This document shows positions 8,547 through 41,096 of a stretch of 64,000 bases of DNA, in pieces. Made by a program: the position numbers and the translations under genes. Below the pieces are notes generated by a model that made no database searches, had not been told where the DNA came from, and worked only from the letters and a program-made list of their open reading frames with translations. Position 1 is the first letter of the stretch. Every line of letters begins with the position of its first letter. Origin of the DNA: Pseudothauera lacus (GTDB lineage Bacteria > Pseudomonadota > Gammaproteobacteria > Burkholderiales > Rhodocyclaceae); the NCBI RefSeq assembly GCF_003034845.1, contig NZ_PZKC01000007.1:1-64000 (forward strand), given 5' to 3'.

Positions 8547-9443
8547 ATGAAACTCGCCCTCGGACCCCTGCTCTACTACTGGCCGCGCCAGGCCACACTG
8601 GATTTCTACGCCGACATTGCCGACAGCACGGTGGACATCGTCTACCTCGGCGAGACGGTGTGCTCGCGCCGCCATGAACTGCGCCTCGACGACTGGCTGG
8701 AAGTGGCCGGCGTGCTCGCCGCGGCCGGCAAGGAGGTGCTGCTGTCCACCCAGGCGCTGATCGAGTCCGAATCGGACCTCAAGGCCCTGCGCCGCATCGT
8801 CGCCCAGGGCGAGTTCGGCGTCGAAGCCAACGACATGGGCGCGGTGCGCCTGCTCGCTGCGGCCGGGCGCCGCGACTGGGTCGCCGGCCCCACCCTGAAC
8901 GTCTTCAACCCCGCCACCCTCGGCCTGCTGCAGGACGCCGGTGCGCGACGCTGGGTGATGGCCCCGGAAATGTCCGGCGCAGCCCTCGCCGACCTGCTCG
9001 CCGGCATGGAGCAGACCCCGCAGACCGAGGTCTTTGCCTGGGGACGCCTGCCGCTGGCGCACTCCGCGCGCTGCTTCACCGCCCGCCACTTCAACCTGCA
9101 GAAGGACACCTGCGAGTTCCGCTGCCTGGGGATGAGCGAAGGCATCGTGCTGCGCACCCGCGAAGGCGAACCCTTCCTCACCCTCAACGGCGTGCAGACC
9201 CAGTCGGCGCGGGTCTACAATCTGCTCGGCGACCTGCCCGCCCTGCGCGCCCACGCCGGCGTGCTGCGCATCAGCCCGCAGGGCGAGCATACCCGCGCGC
9301 TGGTGGACACCTTCCGCGCCGCGCTGGCCGGCGAGCTCAGCCCGGCGGCGGCGCTGGAGCACAGCCGCCAGTGGATGAACGACGCCCCGTGCAACGGTTT
9401 CTGGCACGGACGCCCCGGTGTGGAACAATACGTCGCTGCGTAA
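8547..9443 (+). CDS. ubiV: O2-independent ubiquinone hydroxylation protein UbiV (U32 family)
   Basis: 298 residues from ATG 8547, where family similarity begins (KLALGPLLYYWPRQ; E. coli starts KYSLGPVLWYWPK). The cluster Cys C39, C176, C189 and C193 match E. coli C39, C180, C193 and C197. The segments VYLGETVCSRRHELRLDDW, LPLAHSARCFTARHF and LNGVQTQSARVYNL are characteristic. It is the partner of UbiU in oxygen-independent ubiquinone synthesis. A longer frame starting at 8463 runs through the REP-like repeat and is not used. It is probably cotranscribed with ubiU and ubiT. Confidence 0.93.
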   Translation: MKLALGPLLYYWPRQATLDFYADIADSTVDIVYLGETVCSRRHELRLDDWLEVAGVLAAAGKEVLLSTQALIESESDLKALRRIVAQGEFGVEANDMGAVRLLAAAGRRDWVAGPTLNVFNPATLGLLQDAGARRWVMAPEMSGAALADLLAGMEQTPQTEVFAWGRLPLAHSARCFTARHFNLQKDTCEFRCLGMSEGIVLRTREGEPFLTLNGVQTQSARVYNLLGDLPALRAHAGVLRISPQGEHTRALVDTFRAALAGELSPAAALEHSRQWMNDAPCNGFWHGRPGVEQYVAA

Positions 9444-9469
9444 CCGCCCCCTTCCTGGATCCCCGCCCC

Positions 9470-10015
9470 ATGCCCGCCCTGCCCGCCCTGCCCGATCTGG
9501 CCACCCTGCAGAACGCCGCCCGCCGCCTGCCCACCTTCGTGCTGCCGCCCGCGGTGGCCCGCATCGTCGCCCGCCTGCCGCAGCAGCCGCCCACCCTCGC
9601 CCTCACCGCAGCGCTCAACCTCGCCCTCGGACGCATCCTGCCGCGCGAGGACCTCGCCCCGCTGAACGGCCGCCGACTGCGCCTGCGCGTACTCGACGCC
9701 GGCCTGACACTGGACTTCGGCCTTGGCGAGAAGGGTTTCCGCACGCTGCCGGCGGGCGCTGCCCGCCCCGACCTCACCCTCAGCGCCACGGTGCGCGACT
9801 TCATCGCCCTCGCCGCCCGCGAAGAGGACGCCGACACGCTGTTCTTCAGCCGCCGCCTGGTGATGGAGGGCGACACCGATCTCGGCCTGCTGGTCAAGAA
9901 CACCCTCGACGCGGTGGACTGGGAGGCCGTCGACGCCCGCTGGTCGCCCGCCGCACTGCTCGCCCGCCTGCCCCTGCCGGCGCTGTTCGCGACGCGCCCG
10001 CGCACGGCCGCCTGA
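9470..10015 (+). CDS. ubiT: UbiT, SCP2-domain lipid-binding accessory factor
   Basis: 181 residues from ATG 9470, 26 bases after ubiV. The SCP2 (sterol carrier protein 2) domain covers roughly residues 45-135, with GRRLRLRVLDAGLTLDFGL, RPDLTLSATVRDFIALA and DTLFFSRRLVMEGDTDLGLL; the last is the hallmark of YhbT/UbiT. UbiT is the anaerobic counterpart of UbiJ and binds hydrophobic ubiquinone intermediates. Its place directly after ubiU-ubiV supports the name. The N-terminus is unusually rich in Pro, Ala and Leu. Confidence 0.9.
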   Translation: MPALPALPDLATLQNAARRLPTFVLPPAVARIVARLPQQPPTLALTAALNLALGRILPREDLAPLNGRRLRLRVLDAGLTLDFGLGEKGFRTLPAGAARPDLTLSATVRDFIALAAREEDADTLFFSRRLVMEGDTDLGLLVKNTLDAVDWEAVDARWSPAALLARLPLPALFATRPRTAA

Positions 10016-10069
10016 TGCCCGCCGTGGCGCCTCCCGCGCCCACCGCCGGCTGAGTGCACGGGCAAAGCG

Positions 10070-11152
10070 ATGGCGCGTACCGCCTCTGCCCTGCCGGTCC
10101 ACCTCGCCCTCGCCTATGCAGGGCTGGTGGCCTACGCCTGCCTGCACCCGTTCACCGGCTGGCAGGGCAGCGGCCTTGCCCCCTTCGACTTCCTGCTGGC
10201 GCCGTGGCCGAAGTACTACGAGGTGGACGACATCGTCCTCAACGTGCTCGGCTACCTGCCGCTCGGTTTCGTCACCGCGGCGGCGCTGCCGCGGCGCTGG
10301 GCCGCGCTGCTGCGCATCGTGCTGGCGACGCTGCTGTGCGCCCTTCTCAGCCTGGGGCTGGAGACCGCGCAGAACTTCCTCCCCACCCGCGTCGCCTCCA
10401 ACATCGACCTCGGTGCCAACGCCGCCGGCGGTCTGCTCGGTGCCCTCCTCGGCACCCTCCTCGGCAACTGGCTGTTCGGCGAGCAAGGCTGGCTGCAGCG
10501 CTGGCGCGCGCGCCGCATCGTGGGTGGCCACATGGGCGATGCCGGGCTGATGCTGCTGGGCCTGTGGCTGCTCACCCAGCTCACCCCCGACGGCCTGCTG
10601 TTCGGCAGCGGCGACCTGCGCCAGGCCCTCAGCCTGCCCAGCCCGGTGCTGTTCCAGCCCGCCGCCTTCATCCGCCTGGAGGCCGCCCATGTCGCCGCCA
10701 CCGTGCTCGCCGCCGGCCTGCTGGCACGCTGCATGATGAGCGCTCCGAGCATCTGGCCGATCCTGCTGCTCCTCGCGCTGGCCTGCGGCGCCAACACCCT
10801 GGCGACCTTCTCCTTTTTTTCCACCGACGATCCGCTGGCCTGGCTCACCCCCGGCGCACGACTGGGTCTCACCATCGGCCTCCCCCTGCTCGGCGCCAGC
10901 CTGCTGCTGCCGCGGGTGATCCAGCACGCGCTGGCCGGCGTCGCGCTGCTGGCAGCCACCCTGCTGGTCAACCTGATGCCCGCCAATCCCTACCTGCCAC
11001 TCAACCCGGCAATGCTCGACTCCGGCCACTTCCTCAACTTCCACGGTCTCACCACGCTGGTGACCAGCGCCTGGCCCTTCCTCGCCCTCGCCTACCTGTC
11101 GGCCCTCGGCCTGTGGCGCGGCGAGCACCTGAACGGCGGCCGACGCTTATAA
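10070..11152 (+). CDS. VanZ-like membrane protein
   Basis: 360 residues with eight to nine predicted helices. The N-terminal half matches the VanZ-like domain: YxxxLHPFTGW near the start, then DDIVLNVLGYLPLGFV, the LGLETAQNFLPTRVASNIDLGANAAGGLLGALLG block with conserved Glu, Gln, Arg, Asp and Asn. The C-terminal half adds further helices of unknown role. VanZ family proteins are named for teicoplanin resistance, but most have no known function. It starts 54 bases after ubiT and may be a last gene of that operon; that link is positional only. Confidence 0.8.
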   Translation: MARTASALPVHLALAYAGLVAYACLHPFTGWQGSGLAPFDFLLAPWPKYYEVDDIVLNVLGYLPLGFVTAAALPRRWAALLRIVLATLLCALLSLGLETAQNFLPTRVASNIDLGANAAGGLLGALLGTLLGNWLFGEQGWLQRWRARRIVGGHMGDAGLMLLGLWLLTQLTPDGLLFGSGDLRQALSLPSPVLFQPAAFIRLEAAHVAATVLAAGLLARCMMSAPSIWPILLLLALACGANTLATFSFFSTDDPLAWLTPGARLGLTIGLPLLGASLLLPRVIQHALAGVALLAATLLVNLMPANPYLPLNPAMLDSGHFLNFHGLTTLVTSAWPFLALAYLSALGLWRGEHLNGGRRL

Positions 11153-28606: not shown

Positions 28607-29824
<1,218 letters not shown>

Positions 29825-29890: not shown

Positions 29891-30526
29891 CTAATGCGCC
29901 GGACTCTTTTCCTTGTGCTTCATCACATCCTTGTCCACCAGCCCCCTGATGCCTTCGAGCACGATGCGGCAGACCACCGGTGCCATGTCGGCATGGGTAA
30001 AGCGGCCGTCGGCGCGCAGCCAGGTGAAGGTCCAGTTGATCATCCCGAAGAGGATCATTGCCACCGGCTTGTCGAGGTGGCGGCGCCGGAGCCCGGGCTC
30101 GACACGCTCCACCGCCTCGGCAAAGGCCGCCACCACGCGGCGCTGCTTGGCCGTGACCTGCTCCGCCTGCTCGGCCTGAAGGAACTTGACGTCCTGCACC
30201 AGCACCATGTGGCGGTGCTGGGAGTGCCCGTACTCGTCCATGAAGCGGGTCAGCAGTGCTTCGAGGTGGGGTTGCGGCGCCAGCGCGGCGGCCTTCACCC
30301 CGGCGACGATGTCGAGCAGCTGGTCCATGTAGCTGTCGGCGATGTCGAAGAGGATGTGCTCCTTGTCGCGGTAATAGTGATAGAGCAGCGGCTTGGAGAC
30401 GCCGCAGGCCTTGGCCAGCTCGGCCATCGACGCATTGGGGAAGCTGCGCATGGCAAACAGGCGTGCGGCCTCGGCCAGGATGGTGGCGCGCTGCACTTCG
30501 AAGGTGGGGGCTTTTCCTCGGGCCAT
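29891..30526 (-). CDS. paaR: TetR-family regulator, probable PaaR
   Basis: 211 residues from ATG 30526. The helix-turn-helix is clear: RATILAEAARLFAMRSFPNASMAELAKACGVSKPLLYHYYRDKEHIL. The C-terminal ligand domain has no obvious relatives by eye. TetR regulators inside beta-proteobacterial paa clusters (PaaR) repress the genes until phenylacetyl-CoA binds. A fitting palindrome sits between paaG and paaN at 39308-39323, although none is seen before its own gene. Position between paaE and the thiolase supports the role; the effector is inferred. Confidence 0.8.
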   Translation of the reverse strand: MARGKAPTFEVQRATILAEAARLFAMRSFPNASMAELAKACGVSKPLLYHYYRDKEHILFDIADSYMDQLLDIVAGVKAAALAPQPHLEALLTRFMDEYGHSQHRHMVLVQDVKFLQAEQAEQVTAKQRRVVAAFAEAVERVEPGLRRRHLDKPVAMILFGMINWTFTWLRADGRFTHADMAPVVCRIVLEGIRGLVDKDVMKHKEKSPAH

Positions 30527-30590
30527 GATGTTCAGACGGATTTCGAGCGTTGCGGGAAAGGGGACGCGCCAACGGCCCGGCAATCAAACA

Positions 30591-30791: not shown

Positions 30792-31859
30792 TCAGCGCTC
30801 GTCGAAACTGATCACCACCCGCTCGGTGAGCGGGTGGGCCTGGCAGGTCAGCACATAACCTGCGTCCACGTCGGGCTGCTCCAGCGTGTAGTTCTTGTCC
30901 ATGCGCACCTTGCCTTCCACCACCTTGGCGCGGCAGGTGCAGCACACCCCGCCCTTGCACGAGTACGGCAGGTCCATGCCGGCGCGCAGCGCCACGTCGA
31001 GGATGGAGGGATCGCTGGCATGGAACTCCATCTCGCGGCGCAGGCCGTCGGCCACCACCACGATGGTGGCCTGCGGTGCATCGCCCGCCTCGACGTGATG
31101 CGCGGGGGCGGCATCGGGCACGCCGAAACGCTCCAGGTGGATGTGCTCGGCGCTCAGGCCGGCGCCCAGCAGCGCGGCTTCCACCTCGTCGATCATCGCG
31201 CCGGGGCCGCAGATGAAAGCTTCGTCGATGGTATCCGCCGGCAGCAGGGTGTCCATGAAGGCCGCCACCTTGGCGGCATCCAGGCGGCCGTTGAACAGCG
31301 GCACTTCCTGCTCCTCGCGGGAGAACAGGTTGTACAGCGTGAAGCGCGCCAGATAGCGGTTCTTGAGGTCTTCCAGGGCCTCGGCGAACATCACGCTGGC
31401 CTGGCGGCGGTTGCCGTACACCAGGGTGAAGCGGCTCTGCGGCTCGGCCGCCAGCGTCGTCTTGATCAGCGACAGGATGGGGGTGATGCCGCTACCGGCG
31501 GCAAAGGCCACGTAGTGCCGGGCCTGCGCCGGGTCGAGCGGGGTGTGGAAGCGCCCCTCCGGGGTCATCACCTCCAGCACGTCGCCCACCTTGATGCCGC
31601 CGTTGGCCCAGGTGGAAAAACGCCCGCCGGCTACCTTCTTGATCGCCACGCGCAGTTCGCCATCGTTCACGCCGGCGCAGATGGAATAGGAGCGGCGCAG
31701 CTCCTCGTCACCCACACGGGCCTTCAGGGTGAGGTGCTGGCCCTGCACGAAGCGGTAGTCCTCGGCCAGTGCGGCCGGCACCTCGAAACGCAGGCTCACC
31801 GCGTCGGCGGTCTCGCGCCGCAGCTCGGCAATTTTCAGGGAGTGGAATTTCGGCGTCAT
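30792..31859 (-). CDS. paaE: Phenylacetyl-CoA epoxidase reductase subunit PaaE
   Basis: 355 residues from ATG 31859. An FAD domain (RRSYSICAGVNDGELRVAIK), an NAD(P)-binding domain (YVAFAAGSGITPILSLIK, FICGPGAMIDEVEAAL) and a C-terminal plant-type [2Fe-2S] domain (YSCKGGVCCTCRAKV, plus a distal Cys in LTCQAHP) are in the standard PaaE order. It passes electrons from NADPH to the PaaABC oxygenase. It lies 34 bases after paaD. Confidence 0.95.
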   Translation of the reverse strand: MTPKFHSLKIAELRRETADAVSLRFEVPAALAEDYRFVQGQHLTLKARVGDEELRRSYSICAGVNDGELRVAIKKVAGGRFSTWANGGIKVGDVLEVMTPEGRFHTPLDPAQARHYVAFAAGSGITPILSLIKTTLAAEPQSRFTLVYGNRRQASVMFAEALEDLKNRYLARFTLYNLFSREEQEVPLFNGRLDAAKVAAFMDTLLPADTIDEAFICGPGAMIDEVEAALLGAGLSAEHIHLERFGVPDAAPAHHVEAGDAPQATIVVVADGLRREMEFHASDPSILDVALRAGMDLPYSCKGGVCCTCRAKVVEGKVRMDKNYTLEQPDVDAGYVLTCQAHPLTERVVISFDER

Positions 31860-31893
31860 GGGTTGTCTCCGGCAAGCGTCTGCGCGCTCTCGC

Positions 31894-32385
31894 TCAAATG
31901 GGTTTGAAGTATTCGAAGGGTTCGCGGCAGGCGCGGCAGCGGTACAGCGCCTTGCAGGCCGTGGCGCCGAATTCGGACAGGCGTTCGGTGTCGGTGGAGC
32001 CGCAACGCGGGCAGGTCTGCGCCTTGGCCACAAAACGGATCGGTTGCGCGCCGCCCACCGCGGCCTTGCCCGAGGGTGGCGCGATGCCGTAGGCGCGCAG
32101 CTTGTCGCGTGCGGTCTCGCCGATCCAGTCGGTGGTCCATGCCGGATCGAGGCGGGTTTCGATGTCCACCTCCCCTGCCCCGGCCGCCTGCAGCGCGGCG
32201 CGGATGCTCTCGGCGATCACCTCGGTGGCCGGGCAGCCGGAGTAAGTGGGCGTCACCACCACGCGCAGGCCGTCCTCGCCACAGGCGAGCTCGCGCACGA
32301 TGCCGAGCTCGACCACCGAGACCACCGGGATCTCGGGATCGGGCACGCCTTCGAGCACCTGCCAGGCCTGGGTTTCGCTCAGCAT
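31894..32385 (-). CDS. paaD: Phenylacetyl-CoA epoxidase assembly protein PaaD
   Basis: 163 residues. The N-terminal DUF59/MIP18 domain has VPDPEIPVVSVVELGIVR and TYSGCPATEVIAE with the conserved Cys. The C-terminal part carries a zinc ribbon, CPRCGSTDTERLSEFGATAC and CRACREPFEYFKP. PaaD is thought to help iron-sulfur or diiron maturation of the epoxidase. A 250-bp repeat-containing gap separates it from paaC. Confidence 0.93.
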   Translation of the reverse strand: MLSETQAWQVLEGVPDPEIPVVSVVELGIVRELACGEDGLRVVVTPTYSGCPATEVIAESIRAALQAAGAGEVDIETRLDPAWTTDWIGETARDKLRAYGIAPPSGKAAVGGAQPIRFVAKAQTCPRCGSTDTERLSEFGATACKALYRCRACREPFEYFKPI

Positions 32386-32635: not shown

Positions 32636-33406
32636 TCACCATTGCGCGCCGGGGTAGGTCCGCTGCATGTACTGCATGGTCGCCAGCAAGTGGCCCATGT
32701 GCTCGGAGTGGCGGCCGAACTTGCCGTAGGTCCTGAACGGCGTGCGTGCCGGCACGGTGAGCGTGGCCTCATTGAGCACCGGCACCACCAGGGCCTCCCA
32801 CTCGGGCTCCAGGCTGGCCCAGGCCGGGCCGATGCCGGCGGCTGCCACCGCATCGTCAGCCGGGTTGGCGGCGAAGAACTCGGCGGTGTAGGGCCACAGG
32901 TAATCGAGCGCGGCTTGCGCCCTGGCGTGCGAGAGCTCGGTGCCGTCGCCCAGGCGGATCACCCATTCGCCGGCGTGGCTCAGGTGGTAGCGCGCCTCCT
33001 TCAGGCTCTTGGCGGCAATGGCGGCCAGTTCCGCGTCGCTGCTGGTCGCCAGACGCTGGTAAAGCAGCACCTGGAAGGCGGCGAAGAGGAAGTTGCGCAC
33101 CACGGTACGGCCGAAATCCTCGTTGGGCAGCTCGGTGAGCGTGACGTTGCGGTAGTCGCGCTCCACGCGCAGGAAGGCGAGCTGGTCCTCGTCGCGGCCC
33201 TGGCCTTCCAGCTTGCCGGCGTGGGTCAGCAGCAGGCGCGCCTGACCGATGAGGTCGAGCGCGGTATTGGCCAGCGCCATGTCCTCTTCCAGCACCGGCG
33301 CGTGCCCGCACCACTCGGACAGGCGCTGGCCGAGAATGAGCGCGTTGTCGCCCATGCGCAGCACGTATTCAATGTGCTCCGGCGTTGCGATGTTCTGTTG
33401 GGTCAT
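32636..33406 (-). CDS. paaC: Phenylacetyl-CoA epoxidase structural subunit PaaC
   Basis: 256 residues from ATG 33406. A ferritin-like all-helical protein with LRMGDNALILGQRLSEWCGHAPVLEED, DLIGQARLLLTHAG and KEARYHLSHAGEWVIRLGDGT. It forms the inactive, structural partner of PaaA in the PaaABC(E) complex. It follows paaB by 16 bases. Confidence 0.95.
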   Translation of the reverse strand: MTQQNIATPEHIEYVLRMGDNALILGQRLSEWCGHAPVLEEDMALANTALDLIGQARLLLTHAGKLEGQGRDEDQLAFLRVERDYRNVTLTELPNEDFGRTVVRNFLFAAFQVLLYQRLATSSDAELAAIAAKSLKEARYHLSHAGEWVIRLGDGTELSHARAQAALDYLWPYTAEFFAANPADDAVAAAGIGPAWASLEPEWEALVVPVLNEATLTVPARTPFRTYGKFGRHSEHMGHLLATMQYMQRTYPGAQW

Positions 33407-33422
33407 CGGTCTCTCCCCCGCT

Positions 33423-33710
33423 TCACATGTGATTGACTTCGTCGGGCAGGGTGTAGAAGGTCGGGTGGCGGTAGATCTTGTCTTCCGCCGGGTCGAAGAG
33501 CTCGGGCTTGGCGTCCGGGTCGGAGGCGACGATGTCGCTCGCGCGCACCACCCAGATCGACACGCCTTCCTGGCGGCGGGTATAGACGTCACGCGCCACC
33601 TGCAGCGCGAGCCTGGCATCGGGCGCGTGCACGCTGCCGCAATGCTTGTGATCGAGGCCGTTCTTGCTGCGGACGAAGACTTCCCACAGCGGCCATTCCT
33701 TGCGTTCCAT
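33423..33710 (-). CDS. paaB: Phenylacetyl-CoA epoxidase subunit PaaB
   Basis: 95 residues, the normal PaaB size. WPLWEVFVRSKNGLDHKHCGSVHA and ALQVARDVYTRRQEGVSIWVV are diagnostic. It bridges PaaAC heterodimers in the epoxidase. A 227-bp gap with a family 2 repeat separates it from paaA upstream, unusual within this operon. Confidence 0.95.
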   Translation of the reverse strand: MERKEWPLWEVFVRSKNGLDHKHCGSVHAPDARLALQVARDVYTRRQEGVSIWVVRASDIVASDPDAKPELFDPAEDKIYRHPTFYTLPDEVNHM

Positions 33711-33745
33711 TCAAATCTCCTAGCCGCCAAAGGCGGCGCTGTAAG

Positions 33746-33937: not shown

Positions 33938-34942
33938 TCAAGCCGCGACTTTCTCCCGCGCCGCCTGCTTCCGCGCATGCTCCAGCGCCGCCTCGCGCAC
34001 CCATGCCCCTTCCTCCCAGGCTTTGCGCCGTGCCGCGATGCGGTCCACGTTGCACTGCCCGTGGCCATTCACCGTGGACCAGAACTCCTCCCAGTCGATG
34101 GCGCCGAAGTCGTAGTGGCCGCGTGCCTCGTTCCATTTCAGGTCCGGGTCCGGCAGGGTAATGCCCAGCACTTCGGCCTGCTTCACCGTGGCGTCGACGA
34201 ACTTCTGCCGCAGGTCGTCGTTGGAGATGCGCTTGATGCCCCAGCGCATCGAGGTTTCCGAATGCTGGCTGTCCTTGTCGTGGGGGCCGAACATCATGAT
34301 CGACGGCCACCACCAGCGATTCACCGCGTCCTGCACCATCTCGCGCTGCTCGGGCGTGCCCTTCATCATCTGCAGCAGCAGGTCGTAGCCCTGGCGCTGG
34401 TGGAAGGACTCTTCCTTGCAGATGCGCACCATGGCGCGCGAGTAGGGGCCGTAGCTGCACTTGCACAGCGGGATCTGGTTCATGATCGCCGCACCGTCGA
34501 CCAGCCAGCCGATCACGCCGATGTCCGCCCAGGTCAGCGTCGGGTAGTTGAAGATCGAGCTGTACTTGGCGCGACCGTCGAGCAGGGCTTCGTAGAGTTC
34601 GTCGCGCGACACGCCCAGGGTTTCGGCGGCGGCGTACAGGTAGAGGCCGTGGCCGCCCTCGTCCTGCACCTTGGCGAGCAGGATGGCCTTGCGCTTGAGG
34701 CTGGGCGCGCGGGTGATCCAGTTGCCCTCAGGCAGCATGCCGACGATTTCGGAATGCGCGTGCTGGCTGATCTGGCGCACCAGGGTCTTGCGGTAGGCCT
34801 CGGGCATCCAGTCCTTGGCCTCGATGAAGCCGCCGGCGTCGATCTTGGCGTCGAACTCGGCCTGGTAGTCGGCGTTCTCGACCACGCGCGGGCCTTTCGG
34901 CTCGCCCTTGGGCTGGGGAATGTCCAGAGCTTGTGTATACAT
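33938..34942 (-). CDS. paaA: Phenylacetyl-CoA epoxidase catalytic subunit PaaA
   Basis: 334 residues from ATG 34942, nine bases after GGAG. Diiron ligands sit in ferritin-like helices: [14 protein letters not shown] (E-x2-H) and [18 protein letters not shown] (E-x2-H). [11 protein letters not shown] and [23 protein letters not shown] are typical of PaaA. It forms the 1,2-epoxide of phenylacetyl-CoA with O2. First of the epoxidase genes, 52 bases after paaK. Confidence 0.96.
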
Positions 34943-34994
34943 GTATGTGCTCCTTCTCTGTGGGGGGGCGCCGGCCATGCCGGCGCATGCAATG

Positions 34995-36317
34995 TCAGCC
35001 CTTCGGCCGGCGATCGACGACCCGCTTGGCCTTGCCGATGGTGACCCGCTCGATGCTGAAGGGCTCGCCGACCTGCACCTTGGCAGACACGCCGATGAGG
35101 CTCTTGATGTGGTGGGTGAGCTCCTTGGCGAGCGCTTCCTTCTGCTCCGGGTGGCGGCCGACGCCGGCTTCCGGGTTGATCTCCACCTTCACGGTGAGGG
35201 TGTCCATGTGACCCTGCTTGTCCACTTCCAGCAGGTAGTGCGGGGCCAGCTTGGGGATCTTGCAGATCAGTTCCTCGATCTGCGTGGGGAACACGTTCAC
35301 CCCGCGGATGATCAGCATGTCGTCCGAGCGCCCGGTGATCTTGGCCATGCGCCGCATGCTGCGCGCGGTGGGCGGCAGCAGGCGGGTGAGGTCGCGGGTG
35401 CGGTAGCGGATCACCGGCATTGCTTCCTTGCTGAGCGAGGTGAACACCAGCTCGCCCTCCTCGCCGTCGGCCACCACTTCGCCGGTTTCCGGATTGATGA
35501 TCTCGGGGTAGAAGTGGTCTTCCCAGATGGTCGGACCGTCCTTGGTTTCGACGCACTCGTTGGCTACCCCCGGGCCGATCACTTCGGAGAGGCCGTAGAT
35601 GTCCACCGCATCCATGCCGGAGCGCTCCTCCATCGCCAGGCGCATCGCCGGGGTCCAGGGTTCGGCGCCGAAGATGCCGATCTTCAGCGAAGTGCTCTTC
35701 GGGTCGATCCCCAGGCGCTCCATCTCGTCGAGGATGGTGAGCATGTAGGACGGCGTCACCATGATGATCTTGGGCTTGAAGTCCTGGATGATCTGGATCT
35801 GCTTCTCGGTCTGCCCGCCGGACATCGGCACCACGGTACAGCCCAGCTTCTCGGCGCCGTAGTGCGCGCCCAGGCCGCCGGTGAACAGCCCGTAGCCGTA
35901 GGACACATGCACCATGTCGCCCGGCCGCCCGCCGGAGGCGCGGATGGAGCGCGCCACCACGGTGGCCCAGGTGTCGATGTCGCGCAAGGTGTAGCCCACC
36001 ACCGTCGGCTTGCCGGTGGTGCCGGAGGACGCATGCACGCGGGCGATCTTCTCCATCGGCACCGCGAACATGCCGAAGGGGTAGTTGTCGCGCAGGTCGT
36101 GCTTGGTGGTGAACGGGAACTTGGCCAGATCCGCCAGCGACTTCAGGTCGTCCGGGTGCACGCCCTTGTCGTCGAACTTCTTGCGGTAGTGCGGCACGTT
36201 GTCGTAGGCGTGGCGCAGGCTCCACTTCAGGCGTTCGAGCTGCAGCGCGCGCAACTCGTCGATACTGGCCTTCTCGATCTGGTCGAGCTGCGGCGGGGCA
36301 AAGCTGTTGATCGGCAT
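34995..36317 (-). CDS. paaK: Phenylacetate-CoA ligase PaaK
   Basis: 440 residues. The ATG at 36317 is chosen because GAGGAGG lies eight bases upstream; a GTG two codons earlier would be only two bases from it. Motifs are [15 protein letters not shown] (P-loop), [27 protein letters not shown] and [18 protein letters not shown] of the adenylate-forming family, PaaK branch. It makes phenylacetyl-CoA from phenylacetate, ATP and CoA, the entry step of the pathway. Confidence 0.95.
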
Positions 36318-36385
36318 CCTCACATCCTCCTCGTTGTCGTCAATGCGGCAGTTCTGCGTCCGCCGTCATAATACTCTTGGCATAA

Positions 36386-36850
36386 CTACAACTCGACCAC
36401 CGGCCGCCCCTTGAGGCGGTAGGACTTGCCGCGCATCACCGCGATCAGCTCGCCCTTCTGGTTGCTCACGGTAATGTCGTACACCCCGGTGCGCCCGGCC
36501 ACGAAGACCTCGCGCGCGGCAGCGGTGAGCAGGTCACCCGGACGACCCGGGGCCATGAAGTCCACGCTGACGCCGGAGGCCACCGTCTGCTCGTTGCCAC
36601 TGTTGCAGGCATAGGCGAAGGCGGTATCGGCGAGGGTGGTGATGAAGCCGCCGTGGCAGATCTGAAAACCGTTGAGCATGTCGCCACGCACTTCCATGGT
36701 CATCGTCGCCCGGCCCGGACCGACATCCACGAAGGCCATGCCCAGGCCGCGCGCCGCATGATCGCGCTCGAACATGCCGTCGCGCACGCGCTCGGCCAGG
36801 GTCTGCGGATCTAGCCCGCCGCTGATGTCCCGAAAAGTTGCCTCACTCAT
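36386..36850 (-). CDS. paaI: Hotdog thioesterase PaaI
   Basis: 154 residues from ATG 36850, overlapping the paaH stop by eight bases. The hotdog fold shows MLNGFQICHGGFITTLADTAFAYACNS, with HGG and the catalytic Asp of the 4HBT/PaaI group. It hydrolyses ring-hydroxylated phenylacetyl-CoA to rescue CoA from dead-end products. Confidence 0.93.
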   Translation of the reverse strand: MSEATFRDISGGLDPQTLAERVRDGMFERDHAARGLGMAFVDVGPGRATMTMEVRGDMLNGFQICHGGFITTLADTAFAYACNSGNEQTVASGVSVDFMAPGRPGDLLTAAAREVFVAGRTGVYDITVSNQKGELIAVMRGKSYRLKGRPVVEL

Positions 36851-38378
36851 GAAAGCTCGCTCCGGTGATGGCCTTGCGTTGCAGCAAGGGCGAGGTACGG
36901 TAACGGGTATCGAAGTAGTGTGCGGCCAGATTGGCAAGCACGCGGGCCACGCTGGCCACGCCGATCTCGTCGGCCCATGCCAGGGGCCCCTTCGGATAGT
37001 TGGTGCCGAAGCGCATCGCGGTGTCGATGTCCGCCGCCGAGCCGATGCCGGCGAGCACCGCATCGGCGGCCTCGTTGGCCAGCATCGCCACCGTGCGCAG
37101 GCCCACCAGGCCGGCCACGTCGTCCACGCGGGTCACCGCCAGGCCGGCGGCCTGCAAGGTGCCGGCCACCGCACGCCAGGCCCCGGTGCCGCACTGCTCG
37201 GCCACCGCCAGCGTCAGGCGCGGCGTGGTGGCGTAGTCCAGGCAGAGGTCGAACAACACCAGATTGGGCACGCCCTCTTCCGCCGCGCGCCGGGTGGCGG
37301 TACGGCCGTCGGAGAGCACCAGCCGGGCGCCGCCAATTTCCAGCCAGCCGGCGCCGTGCGCGGAACTTCCCGGCTTGCGCTGCACGGCGATGCCTGCCGC
37401 CTCCAGGCGGGCGATCAGCGCCCCGGCAACGCCCAGGTCGCCGACCACGGCCACCATGGTTTCGCCCTGCTGCGCCGCCTCGGTCGCCGGCAGGGGGCGC
37501 GCGGCGCCTTCCGCGTAGTCGTAGAAACCGCGTCCGCTCTTGCGCCCCAGCCGCCCGGCGAGCACCAGTTCCTGCTGGATCAGGCTGGGAGTGAAGCGCT
37601 TGTCCTGGAAGTACGCGTCGAACACCGAGGAGGTCACGGCGAAGTTCACGTCGTGACCGATGAGGTCCATCAGTTCGAAGGGCCCCATCGGGAAGCCGCA
37701 GCCTTCGCGCAGCACCGCGTCCAGCGTGGCGACATCGGCCGCGCCTTCGCCGAGCACGCGCAGCGCTTCGGCGTAATAGGGGCGGGCGACGCGGTTCACG
37801 ATGAAGCCCGGGGTCGATTTCGCATGCACGGCCACCTTGCCCCAGGCGCGCGCGGTGGCATGCAGGGCGTCGGCAACCTCCGTGTCGGTGGCGAGGCCGG
37901 AGACCACCTCCACCAGCTTCATGACCGGTGCCGGGTTGAAGAAGTGCAGACCGGCGACCCGCCCCGGGCGGGCCAGCGGAGCGGCGAGCGCGGTGATCGA
38001 CAGCGAGGAGGTGTTGCTGGCGAGGATGGCGTCGGCCCCCAGCAGACCTTCCAACTCGGCGAACAGCGCACGCTTGACCGCCAGATCCTCGACGATGGCT
38101 TCCACCACCAGCCCGGCGTCGCGCGCCGCGCCCAGTTCACTCACCGGCAGCACGCGGGCGGCGGCGGCCTGTGCGGCTTCGGCGCTCATGCGGCCCTTGG
38201 CGGCCAGCTTGTCGAGTGCCGCGACGATGCCGGCACGGCCCTGGTCGGCCGCCTCGGCACGGCTGTCATACAGGTAAACGGTGTGGCCGGCCGCGGCCGC
38301 CACCTGGGCGATGCCGCTGCCCATGGCGCCGGCGCCGACCACCAGCACCTTCAGGTCGGGGGAGAGTGCTGCACTCAC
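36843..38378 (-). CDS. paaH: 3-hydroxyacyl-CoA dehydrogenase PaaH
   Basis: 511 residues. Rossmann start VLVVGAGAMGSGIAQVAAAAGH, HFFNPAPVMKLVEVV, the KSTPGFIVNR motif and the first C-terminal domain with GFPMGPFELMDLIGHDV. A second, partial copy of the helical domain fills residues about 400-500 (AMLANEAADAV, NYPKGPLAWADEIG), the usual PaaH architecture of about 500 residues. It oxidises 3-hydroxyadipyl-CoA. It follows paaG by three bases. Confidence 0.94.
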   Translation of the reverse strand: MSAALSPDLKVLVVGAGAMGSGIAQVAAAAGHTVYLYDSRAEAADQGRAGIVAALDKLAAKGRMSAEAAQAAAARVLPVSELGAARDAGLVVEAIVEDLAVKRALFAELEGLLGADAILASNTSSLSITALAAPLARPGRVAGLHFFNPAPVMKLVEVVSGLATDTEVADALHATARAWGKVAVHAKSTPGFIVNRVARPYYAEALRVLGEGAADVATLDAVLREGCGFPMGPFELMDLIGHDVNFAVTSSVFDAYFQDKRFTPSLIQQELVLAGRLGRKSGRGFYDYAEGAARPLPATEAAQQGETMVAVVGDLGVAGALIARLEAAGIAVQRKPGSSAHGAGWLEIGGARLVLSDGRTATRRAAEEGVPNLVLFDLCLDYATTPRLTLAVAEQCGTGAWRAVAGTLQAAGLAVTRVDDVAGLVGLRTVAMLANEAADAVLAGIGSAADIDTAMRFGTNYPKGPLAWADEIGVASVARVLANLAAHYFDTRYRTSPLLQRKAITGASFHE

Positions 38379-38381
38379 CGT

Positions 38382-39209
38382 TCAGTCCCCCTTGAAGCGC
38401 GGCGCGCGCTTTTCCATGAAGGCGGCCACGCCTTCGCGGTAGTCGTGCGAGCGGCCGCACACAGTCATGGCGTCGCGTTCGCGGTTCAACTGGGATTCGA
38501 AATCCTCACCATCGCTGGTCCAGATCAGGCGCTTGGTCTGCGCATAGCCGAAGGTCGGCCCCTGCGCCAGCGTGGCGGCGACCTGCTGCACGGTAGGCAG
38601 CAATGCCTCGTCGTCCACGCACTTCCAGATCAGGCCCCATTGCTCGGCCTGTTCGGCCCCCAGCTTGTCGCCCAGCAGGGCCAGGCCCATGGCGCGCGCC
38701 GGGCCGAGCAGGCGCGGCAGGATCCAGGTGCCGCCGGTATCCGGGATCAGGCCGAGCTTGGCGAAGGACTGGATGAAGCTCGCCGAGCGCGCGGCGAACA
38801 CCAGGTCGCAGGCCAGCGCGAGGTTGGCGCCGGCACCTGCGGCAACGCCGTTCACCGCAGCGATCACCGGCAGGTCGAGCGCACGCAGCGCGAGCACCAG
38901 CGGCTTGTAGTTGCGTTCGACGGAGGCGCCGAGGTCGGGGGCCTCGTCGCCGGCCGCCACGGCGCGGTCGGAGAGATCCTGGCCGGCGCAGAAACCCCGC
39001 CCGGCGCCGGTCAGCACCAGCACGCGGACGCTACCGTCGGCACGCCCGGCGCGCACCGCGGCGAGCGCCGCACGCACTTCGGCGTGCATCTGATCGTTGA
39101 AGCTGTTGAGCCGCTCGGGGCGGTTCAGGGTCAGCGTCGCCACGCCTTCGGCCACCGTCAGGGCGATGGTCTCGAAAGGCTGGGCCGCGGCACTGTGGGC
39201 AGTGCTCAT
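38382..39209 (-). CDS. paaG: 2-(1,2-epoxy)phenylacetyl-CoA isomerase PaaG
   Basis: 275 residues from ATG 39209, with GGAGGAG 6-12 bases before it. Crotonase fold: LTLNRPERLNSFNDQMHAEV, GRGFCAGQDLSD (oxyanion hole), AAVNGVAAGAGANLALACDLVFAA and GLIPDTGGTWILPRLLG with the acid residue. It turns the epoxide into an oxepin. It is the first gene of the long minus-strand paa run. The only enoyl-CoA hydratase-type gene in the locus; no paaF is seen. Confidence 0.92.
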   Translation of the reverse strand: MSTAHSAAAQPFETIALTVAEGVATLTLNRPERLNSFNDQMHAEVRAALAAVRAGRADGSVRVLVLTGAGRGFCAGQDLSDRAVAAGDEAPDLGASVERNYKPLVLALRALDLPVIAAVNGVAAGAGANLALACDLVFAARSASFIQSFAKLGLIPDTGGTWILPRLLGPARAMGLALLGDKLGAEQAEQWGLIWKCVDDEALLPTVQQVAATLAQGPTFGYAQTKRLIWTSDGEDFESQLNRERDAMTVCGRSHDYREGVAAFMEKRAPRFKGD

Positions 39210-39307: not shown

Positions 39308-39323
39308 TTGACCGACCGGTCAA
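39308..39323. promoter_or_regulatory. TetR-type operator (putative PaaR site) between paaG and paaN
   Basis: TTGACC-GACC-GGTCAA is a perfect inverted repeat whose core ACCGACCGGTC has the form recognised by many TetR regulators of acyl-CoA catabolism. It overlaps the start point expected from the minus-strand promoter at 39327-39356, so binding there should block paaG transcription. Regulator identity is inferred from the TetR gene at 29891. Confidence 0.7.
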
Positions 39324-39326
39324 TCA

Positions 39327-39356
39327 ATAGTAGTCTTGATCCAGATCAAAAAACAA
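39327..39356 (-). promoter_or_regulatory. Probable sigma-70 promoter of the paaG operon
   Basis: On the minus strand TTGTTT (39351-39356), an 18-bp spacer and TACTAT (39327-39332) make a reasonable promoter, with a start near 39320. The FNR-type box lies in the spacer and the TetR-type palindrome at the start point. Inference from sequence. Confidence 0.5.
39336..39349. promoter_or_regulatory. Perfect FNR/ANR box in the paaG-paaN control region
   Basis: TTGATCCAGATCAA matches the FNR consensus TTGAT-N4-ATCAA at every fixed position. It lies 12 bp from the TetR-type palindrome and, for the paaG promoter proposed above, between -35 and -10, a repressing position. For paaN its centre is 83.5 bp before the ATG. 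Confidence 0.75.
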
Positions 39357-39425
39357 GCACTATTTTTCGCACCCCGCGAAGACCCTTTTTCACGGCGCAC
39401 AGACGCCGTCAATGGAGGAGACGCC

Positions 39426-41096
39426 ATGACCCACCCGCTGTTCGACAAGCACCGCGCCACCCTGGACGCGGCCCTCGACGCCATCCACAGCCGCGGCTAC
39501 TGGACCCCCTACCCCGAGATGCCCAGCCCCAAGGTGTATGGCGAAACCGCCATGGCCGACGGCAAGGCCGCGGTGGAGGCACTCGCCGGCCAGGACTTCG
39601 TTCTCGACCAGCCCGGCGCCAGCGCCTGGGCCGCGCCGGAGAAAAGCCCCTACGGCGTGAAGCTGGACGTGCGCTATCCGGTGTGTGACGTGGACGCGCT
39701 GATCGCCGCCGCCCAGGCCGCCATGCCGGGCTGGCGCAAGATCGGCGCCGAAGGCCGCGTCGGCGTGTGCCTGGAGATCCTCGACCGCCTCAACAAGAAG
39801 AGCTTCGAGATCGCCCACGCGGTGATGTACACCACCGGCCAGGGCTGGATGATGGCCTTCCAGGCCGGCGGCCCGCACGCGCAGGACCGCGGTCTGGAAG
39901 CCGTGGCCTACGCCTGGGACGAGATGAGCCGCATCCCTGCGACCACCATCTGGGAAAAGCCGCAGGGCAAGAACCCGGCGCTGAAGATGCAGAAGCACTA
40001 CGAGATCGTCGGCCGCGGCGTGGCGCTGGTGATCGGCTGCGGCACCTTCCCGACCTGGAACACCTATCCGGGCCTGTTTGCGGCGCTCGCCACCGGCAAC
40101 CCGGTGATCGTCAAGCCGCACAGCAACGCCATCCTGCCCGCCGCCATCACCGTGCGCATCATCCGCGAAGTGCTCGCCGAAGCCGGTCTCGACCCCAACC
40201 TGGTTAGCCTCGCAGTGGTGGAAAAGCGCGCCGCCACCCAGGCGCTGGCCACCCACCCGGCGGTGAAATCCATCGACTTCACCGGCGGTAACGTCTTCGG
40301 CCAGTGGCTGCTCGACAACGCCCGCCAGGCCCAGGTGTATGCCGAGCTGGCCGGGGTAAACAACGTGGTGATCGAGTCCACCGACAGCTACAAGGCCATG
40401 CTGAGGAACCTCGCGTTCACGCTCAGCCTTTACTCCGGGCAGATGTGCACCACCACCCAGGCGATCATGGTGCCCGCCGGCGGCATCGAGACCGACCAGG
40501 GCCACAAGAGTTTCGACGAAGTCGCCGCCGACCTCGGCGCGGCGATCAGCAAGTTCCTCGCCGATCCCGCAGTGGCCACCGCGGTGCTCGGTGCCATCCA
40601 GTCCGAAGCCACGCTGGCGCGCATCGAGGAATGCCAGTCCGGCGCCTTCGGCAAGGTGGTGCTCGGCTCCAGCAAGATCGAGCACCCCGAATTCCCCGGC
40701 GCCGAAGTGCGCACCCCGGTGCTGCTGGCCTGCGACGCCGCCGACGAGTCGAACTACATGGAAGAACGCTTCGGCCCCATTGCCTTCGTCGTCAAGGTCG
40801 CCGACGGCGCCGCCGCGGTGGCGCTCTCCGAACGCATCGTGCGCAAGCACGGCGCGCTCACCGTGGGCGTGTATTCGACCCGCGCGGAGATCCTCGACGC
40901 CATGACCGAAGCCACCCTCAACGCCGGCGTCGCGCTGTCGATCAACCTCACCGGCGGGGTGTTCGTGAACCAGTCCGCGGCCTTCTCCGACTACCACGGC
41001 GTAGGCATGAACCCGGCCGCCAACGCCTCGTATTCGGACGCTGCCTTCGTCGCCAACCGCTTCCGCGTGGTGCAGCGGCGTTACCACGTCGAGTAA
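39426..41096 (+). CDS. paaN: Ring-opening semialdehyde dehydrogenase PaaN (PaaZ without hydratase domain)
   Basis: 556 residues from ATG 39426, after TGGAGGAG. It is an aldehyde dehydrogenase of the phenylacetate type: GVALVIGCGTFPTWNTYPGL (cofactor domain), the SIDFTGGNVFG loop, ELAGVNNVVIES with the Glu, and LYSGQMCTTTQAIMVP with the catalytic Cys. E. coli PaaZ (about 680 residues) has a further C-terminal MaoC-type hydratase that opens the oxepin ring. That domain is absent here, as in Azoarcus evansii PacL. A separate hydratase must exist elsewhere. Transcribed divergently from paaG. Confidence 0.92.
   Translation: MTHPLFDKHRATLDAALDAIHSRGYWTPYPEMPSPKVYGETAMADGKAAVEALAGQDFVLDQPGASAWAAPEKSPYGVKLDVRYPVCDVDALIAAAQAAMPGWRKIGAEGRVGVCLEILDRLNKKSFEIAHAVMYTTGQGWMMAFQAGGPHAQDRGLEAVAYAWDEMSRIPATTIWEKPQGKNPALKMQKHYEIVGRGVALVIGCGTFPTWNTYPGLFAALATGNPVIVKPHSNAILPAAITVRIIREVLAEAGLDPNLVSLAVVEKRAATQALATHPAVKSIDFTGGNVFGQWLLDNARQAQVYAELAGVNNVVIESTDSYKAMLRNLAFTLSLYSGQMCTTTQAIMVPAGGIETDQGHKSFDEVAADLGAAISKFLADPAVATAVLGAIQSEATLARIEECQSGAFGKVVLGSSKIEHPEFPGAEVRTPVLLACDAADESNYMEERFGPIAFVVKVADGAAAVALSERIVRKHGALTVGVYSTRAEILDAMTEATLNAGVALSINLTGGVFVNQSAAFSDYHGVGMNPAANASYSDAAFVANRFRVVQRRYHVE

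Follow-up and report, generated by a model that had tools for sequence, protein, structure and literature searches.

A conserved pair of putative TetR-family and FNR-type sites between paaG and paaN suggests a two-input, two-direction off-switch for phenylacetate genes

The gap between the divergent genes paaG and paaN carries a 42-base control element, in which a putative operator for a TetR-family repressor is followed 12 bp later by a putative FNR-type box, and this element is likely to act as an off-switch with two inputs, TetR and an FNR-type regulator, and two directions. Phenylacetyl-CoA serves as a hub in the metabolism of aromatic compounds; the aerobic branch leading from it needs O2 for the PaaABC epoxidase. 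The near letter-for-letter conservation of the element suggests that its carriers switch this O2-consuming pathway off when oxygen runs out. The element lies in the window (the whole stretch of 64,000 nucleotides that was analysed), where the gap measures 216 bp, with the start of paaG at 39209 on the minus strand and that of paaN at 39426 on the plus strand. The original prediction had read here a TetR palindrome and a perfect FNR box 12 bp apart, together with a minus-strand promoter of the form TTGTTT-18-TACTAT, and all of these are present. The parts of the element are as follows.

39308-39323, unstranded: putative TetR-family (PaaR-type) operator, TTGACCGACCGGTCAA, one of two perfect copies in the genome
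39308-39313, plus strand: predicted −35 element of the paaN promoter, TTGACC, in the left arm of the operator
39327-39332, minus strand: predicted −10 element of the paaG promoter, TACTAT
39331-39336, plus strand: predicted −10 element of the paaN promoter, TAGTCT
39336-39349, unstranded: putative FNR-type box, TTGATCCAGATCAA, a perfect match to TTGAT-N4-ATCAA
39351-39356, minus strand: predicted −35 element of the paaG promoter, TTGTTT

The genes on either side were identified from profile matches and translations.

39426-41096, plus strand: paaN, aldehyde dehydrogenase family (translation; plasmid matches annotated PaaN)
38382-39209, minus strand: paaG, which opens the minus-strand operon (translation reads as crotonase-like; plasmid match annotated PaaG)
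36843-38378, minus strand: paaH (TIGR02279, 779 bits)
36386-36850, minus strand: paaI thioesterase, start estimated from the translation (TIGR02286, 163.7 bits)
34995-36323, minus strand: paaK phenylacetate-CoA ligase (TIGR02155, 779.8 bits)
33938-34978, minus strand: paaA, O2-consuming epoxidase subunit (TIGR02156, 554.9 bits)
32636-33730, minus strand: paaC epoxidase subunit, open frame with the match from residue 126 (TIGR02158, 342.2 bits)
31894-32385, minus strand: paaD (TIGR02159, 221.9 bits)
30792-32033, minus strand: paaE reductase, open frame with the match from residue 63 (TIGR02160, 560.2 bits)
29891-30583, minus strand: TetR-family regulator, candidate PaaR (TetR_N and TetR_C_24)
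28607-29824, minus strand: pcaF/paaJ thiolase (TIGR02430, 733.5 bits)

The minus-strand genes thus run in the order paaG, paaH, paaI, paaK, paaA, paaC, paaD, paaE, the TetR gene, and pcaF/paaJ; since they include the epoxidase subunits, the paaG promoter should drive the O2-using epoxidase.

The operator consists of two perfect 7-bp arms, TTGACCG and CGGTCAA, on either side of a 2-bp centre (AC). The FNR box is the sole match in the window at one mismatch or fewer, a count that is unremarkable in itself, as 33 of 100 shuffles contained at least one such match. Across the 3.66-Mb genome, 5 perfect boxes stand against 0 for the reversed pattern, and 81 against 7 when up to one mismatch is allowed. 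The palindrome has two perfect copies in the genome; at up to three mismatches, its 154 matches are fewer than the 355 of the reversed control, and weak matches to it are therefore meaningless. That the operator–FNR pair exceeds chance follows from its position and recurrence rather than from its count in the window. Folded as a single strand, the site gives a z-score of −2.50, with a hairpin at the palindrome and a second, longer hairpin opening the FNR box. A search of the literature did not find the operator letters in published papers.

At a 12-bp spacing and with up to three mismatches, the pair occurs in 47 of the family's 395 genomes and in 10 of its 68 genera, and the reversed control gave 0; a paaN match (E ≤1e-150) was present in 147 of the 395 genomes and in 33 genera. 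With paaN similarity as the sole ranking criterion, the top 43 genomes included 41 with the pair, and the remaining two (G123 and G014) carried a degraded form of it. A scan of a named genome collection returned 37 stretches with the pair, many of them probably from the same species and overlapping in species with the family set. Thirty lie at paaG and/or paaN, from sources that include Aromatoleum, Azoarcus, Pseudothauera, Denitromonas, Parazoarcus, Cognatazoarcus, Tepidiphilus, Hydrogenophilus, and one alphaproteobacterial MAG with an 18-bp spacing, and four precede a diiron protein and a reductase. In two others, from Pseudolabrys (L124) and Luteibacter (L139), there was no match to any of the four probe proteins, and in one Thauera MAG (L130) the pair is kept and the diiron gene that follows is cut short after 24 codons. 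The alphaproteobacterial MAG has both sites, 18 bp apart, between a paaG and a paaN of about 50% identity (L119:2634-2681), possibly the same logic separately evolved or acquired. One g73 genome has the pair, with a degraded TCGAG arm, before a gene that reads as paaY rather than paaN (L162:1504).

Recurrence was also assessed independently of the box, by choosing loci on paaN protein similarity and scanning both strands. Of 22 loci examined, 7 had the operator, and all 7 had TTGA-N6-TCAA 12 bp behind it. Among a second set of 20 promoter stretches, 5 had the operator, including the already known pair carriers L146, L162, and L165; L152 and L161, from genomes not picked up by the module search, both combine the operator with TTGA-N6-TCAA. 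In total, 9 of 9 operators that had not been chosen for a box have TTGA-N6-TCAA at 12 bp, and the other loci were without any such operator. Lack of conservation in close relatives was to have refuted the original prediction, but relatives retain the two sites at the same distance from each other.

To compare letters column by column, 71 copies with 70-bp flanks (some genomes contributing twice) were reduced to 32 with a pairwise flank identity below 75%. These represent 12 genera, namely the 10 of the family scan (some by way of named loci) plus g10 and g62, and they count as sequences, not as evolutionary events, because the carriers are related bacteria and the copies are not independent. 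Mean pairwise identity was 0.92 in the operator arms and 0.91 in the FNR arms, values that are partly circular because the search patterns requested most of the arm letters; the 0.86 of the spacer and the 0.76 of the FNR centre concern letters requested by no pattern and are not circular. In the flanks, identity was 0.31 on the left and 0.38 on the right. The box reads TTGA-N6-TCAA in 31 of the 32 copies, TTGAY-N4-RTCAA in 28, and exactly TTGATNNNNATCAA in 17, the source genome included. Position 5 is C in 6 copies and position 10 is G in 6; G occupies position 5 in four, giving a less good FNR site, and L162, one of the four, has C at position 2 as well.

The same 32 copies outline two interleaved promoters. 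On the plus strand, the predicted paaN −35 lies 17 bp before a TANNNT in 32/32, and some relatives have TATACT or TAAAAT as the −10. On the minus strand, the best −35 starts with TTG in 32/32 and the −10 is TANNNT in 32/32, in letters requested by no pattern, with a spacing of 17–19 bp (18 bp in 26 copies). Both −10 elements lie between the two sites in every copy, against a background of 17 TANNNT in 4096 flank positions; the two counts are not independent, because the TA at 39331-39332 belongs to both elements. The pattern forced TTGACC and, in the paaN −10, the last T, which is the first letter of the box; neither the TA common to both elements nor the A at 39327 was requested. Start sites were estimated at 6–8 bases past each −10, which predicts a paaG start near 39320, inside the operator, and a paaN start near 39343, in the middle of the FNR box. 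The TetR site is thus predicted to span the paaG start together with the paaN −35. The FNR box would in turn span the paaN start and fill the paaG spacer. Since each site overlaps both predicted promoters, each regulator should block both directions. The original prediction had both regulators repressing paaG: the predicted geometry is repressive, but the effect would not be confined to paaG, as the paaN promoter is interleaved with it. The paaN half of this anatomy is an addition to the paaG half described there.

The sites, their recurrence at a fixed spacing, the conserved −10 letters, the linkage of the TetR gene, and an FNR gene with a cysteine motif were computed here; we infer the start sites, the binding proteins, the ligand, and the response to O2. 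As proposed, two sigma-70-type promoters would diverge with overlapping −10 elements. The TetR-family repressor from the paa operon, the candidate PaaR, would occupy the palindrome and block both paaN and paaG, and phenylacetyl-CoA, to judge from known PaaR/PaaX regulators, would most likely release it. When O2 is lacking, an FNR-type dimer on the second box would block both promoters again. The epoxidase operon would therefore run only with both substrate and oxygen present.

Candidates for both proteins are encoded in the genome. Of seven TetR_N genes, one lies inside the paa operon, and in selected stretches of up to 15 kb, a homologue was found in the paa operon of 15 of 15 genomes examined (13 with the module, plus G066 and G014 with its degraded form) and in none of the 5 genomes lacking the module. 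PDB matches of the TetR protein include 3ccy (6.3e-32) and 3vpr (1.1e-16, 'Transcriptional regulator, TetR family'), the latter of which we take to be the structure of PaaR from T. thermophilus. A TetR-family gene linked to the paa genes and an inverted-repeat operator in the paa promoter core are both features of a PaaR regulon. An assignment of the palindrome to a fatty-acid regulator (FadP-type) was considered and rejected, the place of the TetR gene in the paa operon speaking against it. On the FNR side, there are 13 HTH_Crp_2 matches, 9 of them over the cut-off. The FNR orthologue at C23:74263-75009 has an N-terminal CSQCNLQELC (C-x2-C-x5-C) and an ETVSR (ExxSR) recognition helix, and it adjoins genes read as hemN and cco, which have FNR-type boxes. 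The genome thus combines a box matching TTGAT-N4-ATCAA with a gene for an FNR protein bearing the cysteine motif.

The box might instead be read by another Crp/Fnr protein, a DNR/NNR-type sensor of NO, in which case denitrification rather than lack of O2 would shut paa down. This is unlikely, though it deserves some weight: the box accepts a C at its fifth position and a G at its tenth (6/32 each, as above), several of the HTH_Crp_2 proteins that were read out lack the cysteine motif of FNR (including one encoded at C23:71369, close to the FNR gene itself), and the genome has nosZ. Against it, the exact FNR consensus is kept in 17 of the 32 copies, although sequence alone cannot separate FNR from DNR. 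The organism had been described as a facultative denitrifier; nosZ bears this out for at least the last step, but no narG was found over the cut-off in the genome, where there were two weak partial matches.

The sign of control can be judged from position. FNR activator sites of class II have their centre at −41.5, so that the −10 element falls 36 bases past the start of the box. In the paa modules, TANNNT occurs at the activator distance (35–37) in 0 of 32 copies in either direction, the zero on the minus strand being partly forced because the operator letters leave little room. A role of the box as activator site for paaG or paaN was rejected on these counts. Activation of paa by an FNR-type protein at low O2 from other start sites is most improbable: it could draw on a table from B. 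diazoefficiens in which paa rows stand beside fix genes among microoxia-responsive proteins and genes (PMC6515984), and on the Azoarcus FNR-family protein that activates anaerobic aromatic genes from a site centred at −41.5 (PMC6678401), but the same absence of TANNNT at 35–37 on the plus strand stands against it. The Bradyrhizobium rows, with paaA among the entries raised in microoxia, do count against any general rule of anoxic paa shut-off.

The expected activator geometry is found at a different gene, iorA, for the alpha subunit of indolepyruvate ferredoxin oxidoreductase (629.5 bits, slightly under the curated cut-off of 650.9). Present in 20 of 61 genomes, iorA has a TTGAY-N4-RTCAA box within 260 bp upstream at 12 of the 20 loci, and all 12, 5 of which belong to the genus of the source genome, have TANNNT at exactly +36; at the other 8 loci, no such box was found within 260 bp upstream. 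One such iorA promoter, with its FNR-type box in activator position, lies at G000:C23:114945-114984 (L052:7946-7985). All five members of the genus that possess iorA also show, 10 bp past the box, the palindrome TTGACCGACCGGTAAG, or a form at most one letter off, which overlaps the −10; it is a half match to the paa palindrome, from which its right arm differs, so that it is not certain that the same TetR protein binds there. The activator geometry is not universal, since boxes near ccoN and hemN in the source genome lack TANNNT at +36, one of the ccoN boxes (ccoN b) having it at +35.

A second promoter bears on the pair. The second perfect palindrome in the genome (C7:40849) precedes a 341-residue, diiron-type protein with two ExxH motifs, which is followed by a reductase (L051:7968-8990 and 9074-10129; G000:C7:40967-43128). 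The 341-residue protein gave no Pfam or NCBIfam match over the cut-off (Ribonuc_red_sm and AurF fell below it) and no significant PDB match, and the reductase is BenC/PaaE-like, below the cut-offs of those models. Sixteen bp behind the palindrome lies an FNR-like box, TTGACCCAGATCAT, with 2 mismatches; four relatives have 0–1 mismatch, a like box at the same 16-bp spacing occurs at 6 diiron promoters, and 3 of the 6 have TANNNT at 17 bp. In relatives without the module, the diiron–reductase pair and paaN are divergently oriented in 11 of 20 stretches, and the pair therefore belongs with the phenylacetate genes; it is probably an O2-dependent pair of the phenylacetate regulon. That the second site of the element might be conserved promoter sequence only, with no Crp/Fnr protein binding, fits its place within an overlapping promoter pair whose spacer is likewise conserved (0.86), but it has little to commend it, given that the TCAA arm supplies neither a −35 nor a −10 at the predicted spacing, yet occurs in all 9 operator-bearing loci selected without regard to the box, and that a like box recurs at the six diiron promoters.

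We also considered whether the diiron protein and reductase replace PaaABCDE where the module is absent, an idea prompted by upstream stretches lacking paaA, C, and E, and rejected this for G284, which has paaA, C, D, and E further along the cluster (L225); in G245, G209, G023, and G082, where such a replacement may still apply, no paaA, C, or E was found in the stretches fetched on both sides, which do not cover the whole genome. Two loci without the module (L211 and L215) have the diiron–reductase pair and then a gene read as PaaX, with L215 also having one read as PaaY. By eye, the promoters of relatives without the module show GATAC-type repeats, and a stretch CGATACCACAA that is shared upstream of the diiron gene in L051, L109, and L130 resembles these repeats and is perhaps a relic of an older operator.

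Taken more broadly, one FNR-type regulator could be a reciprocal switch at the phenylacetyl-CoA node, a reading we offer tentatively and hold at somewhat less than even probability. Under anoxia, this regulator would repress the ring-oxygenation operon, paaN, and the diiron pair from boxes over promoter cores, and activate iorA, whose product would carry out the ferredoxin-linked conversion of phenylpyruvate to phenylacetyl-CoA, from a box at −41.5. As the iorA palindrome of this genus has the same core and lies over the −10, one substrate-sensing repressor may gate both arms. If so, the system would be a natural example of one box type acting with opposite signs according to position. The original prediction had anaerobic phenylacetate degradation proceed by another route; one through benzoyl-CoA is not supported in this genome, which gave no match to benzoyl-CoA reductase subunit C (TIGR02263). 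With no match to this subunit and no narG over the cut-off, the benefit of the off-switch would lie in making no useless oxygenase, rather than in a handover to anaerobic ring reduction.

A search of the open-licence literature returned no account, for this bacterial group, of either FNR binding to paa or control of paa by O2. Data from Azoarcus BH72, in which paa genes were lower on N2 than on ammonium (PMC3916325), are silent on oxygen because both cultures were grown at 0.6% O2. A. aromaticum EbN1, of the wider group, is described as lacking ArcBA and possessing FNR, with FNR-type motifs reported for denitrification genes (PMC9765128). Two findings on this strain count against the proposed oxygen switch: O2 control of its aromatic pathways is reported to be relaxed, and its TetR-linked paa cluster made no products (PMC9765128). 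Its authors hold that such specialists do not strictly differentiate between oxic and anoxic conditions at the regulatory level (PMC9765128), a published view that the reciprocal switch, if true, would contradict.

Among known systems, the TetR half of the element is closest to PaaR of Burkholderia cenocepacia K56-2, a TetR-type regulator with an inverted repeat in the paa core promoters that is needed for repression of paaA (PMC2770484). In both cases, a TetR-family gene lies near the paa genes and a short inverted repeat sits in the promoter cores; in B. cenocepacia, however, the repeat lies between −35 and −10, and no FNR-type site is mentioned in the part of that account drawn on here, whereas the present operator serves two divergent promoters. 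The FNR half has a parallel in Azoarcus sp. CIB, of the same bacterial group, in which the FNR-type regulator AcpR activates the anaerobic bzd promoter PN from −41.5 (PMC6678401). There too, an FNR-type regulator and a repressor sensing the CoA-linked substrate act on one promoter, but the sign is opposite, an anaerobic pathway being activated from −41.5, whereas here the box covers the core of an aerobic promoter. The proposed logic as a whole resembles that of ArcA and PaaX in E. coli, in which an anaerobic shut-off of paa is laid over a substrate-sensing repressor: under anoxia with phenylacetate, paaA expression was 23 Miller units in the wild type against 404 without ArcA (PMC3798270). 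The E. coli sensor is ArcA, acting at a different site, and the FNR-type box would do that job here; the same problem that E. coli solves through ArcA has apparently been solved in this group by an FNR-type site set within an interleaved divergent promoter.
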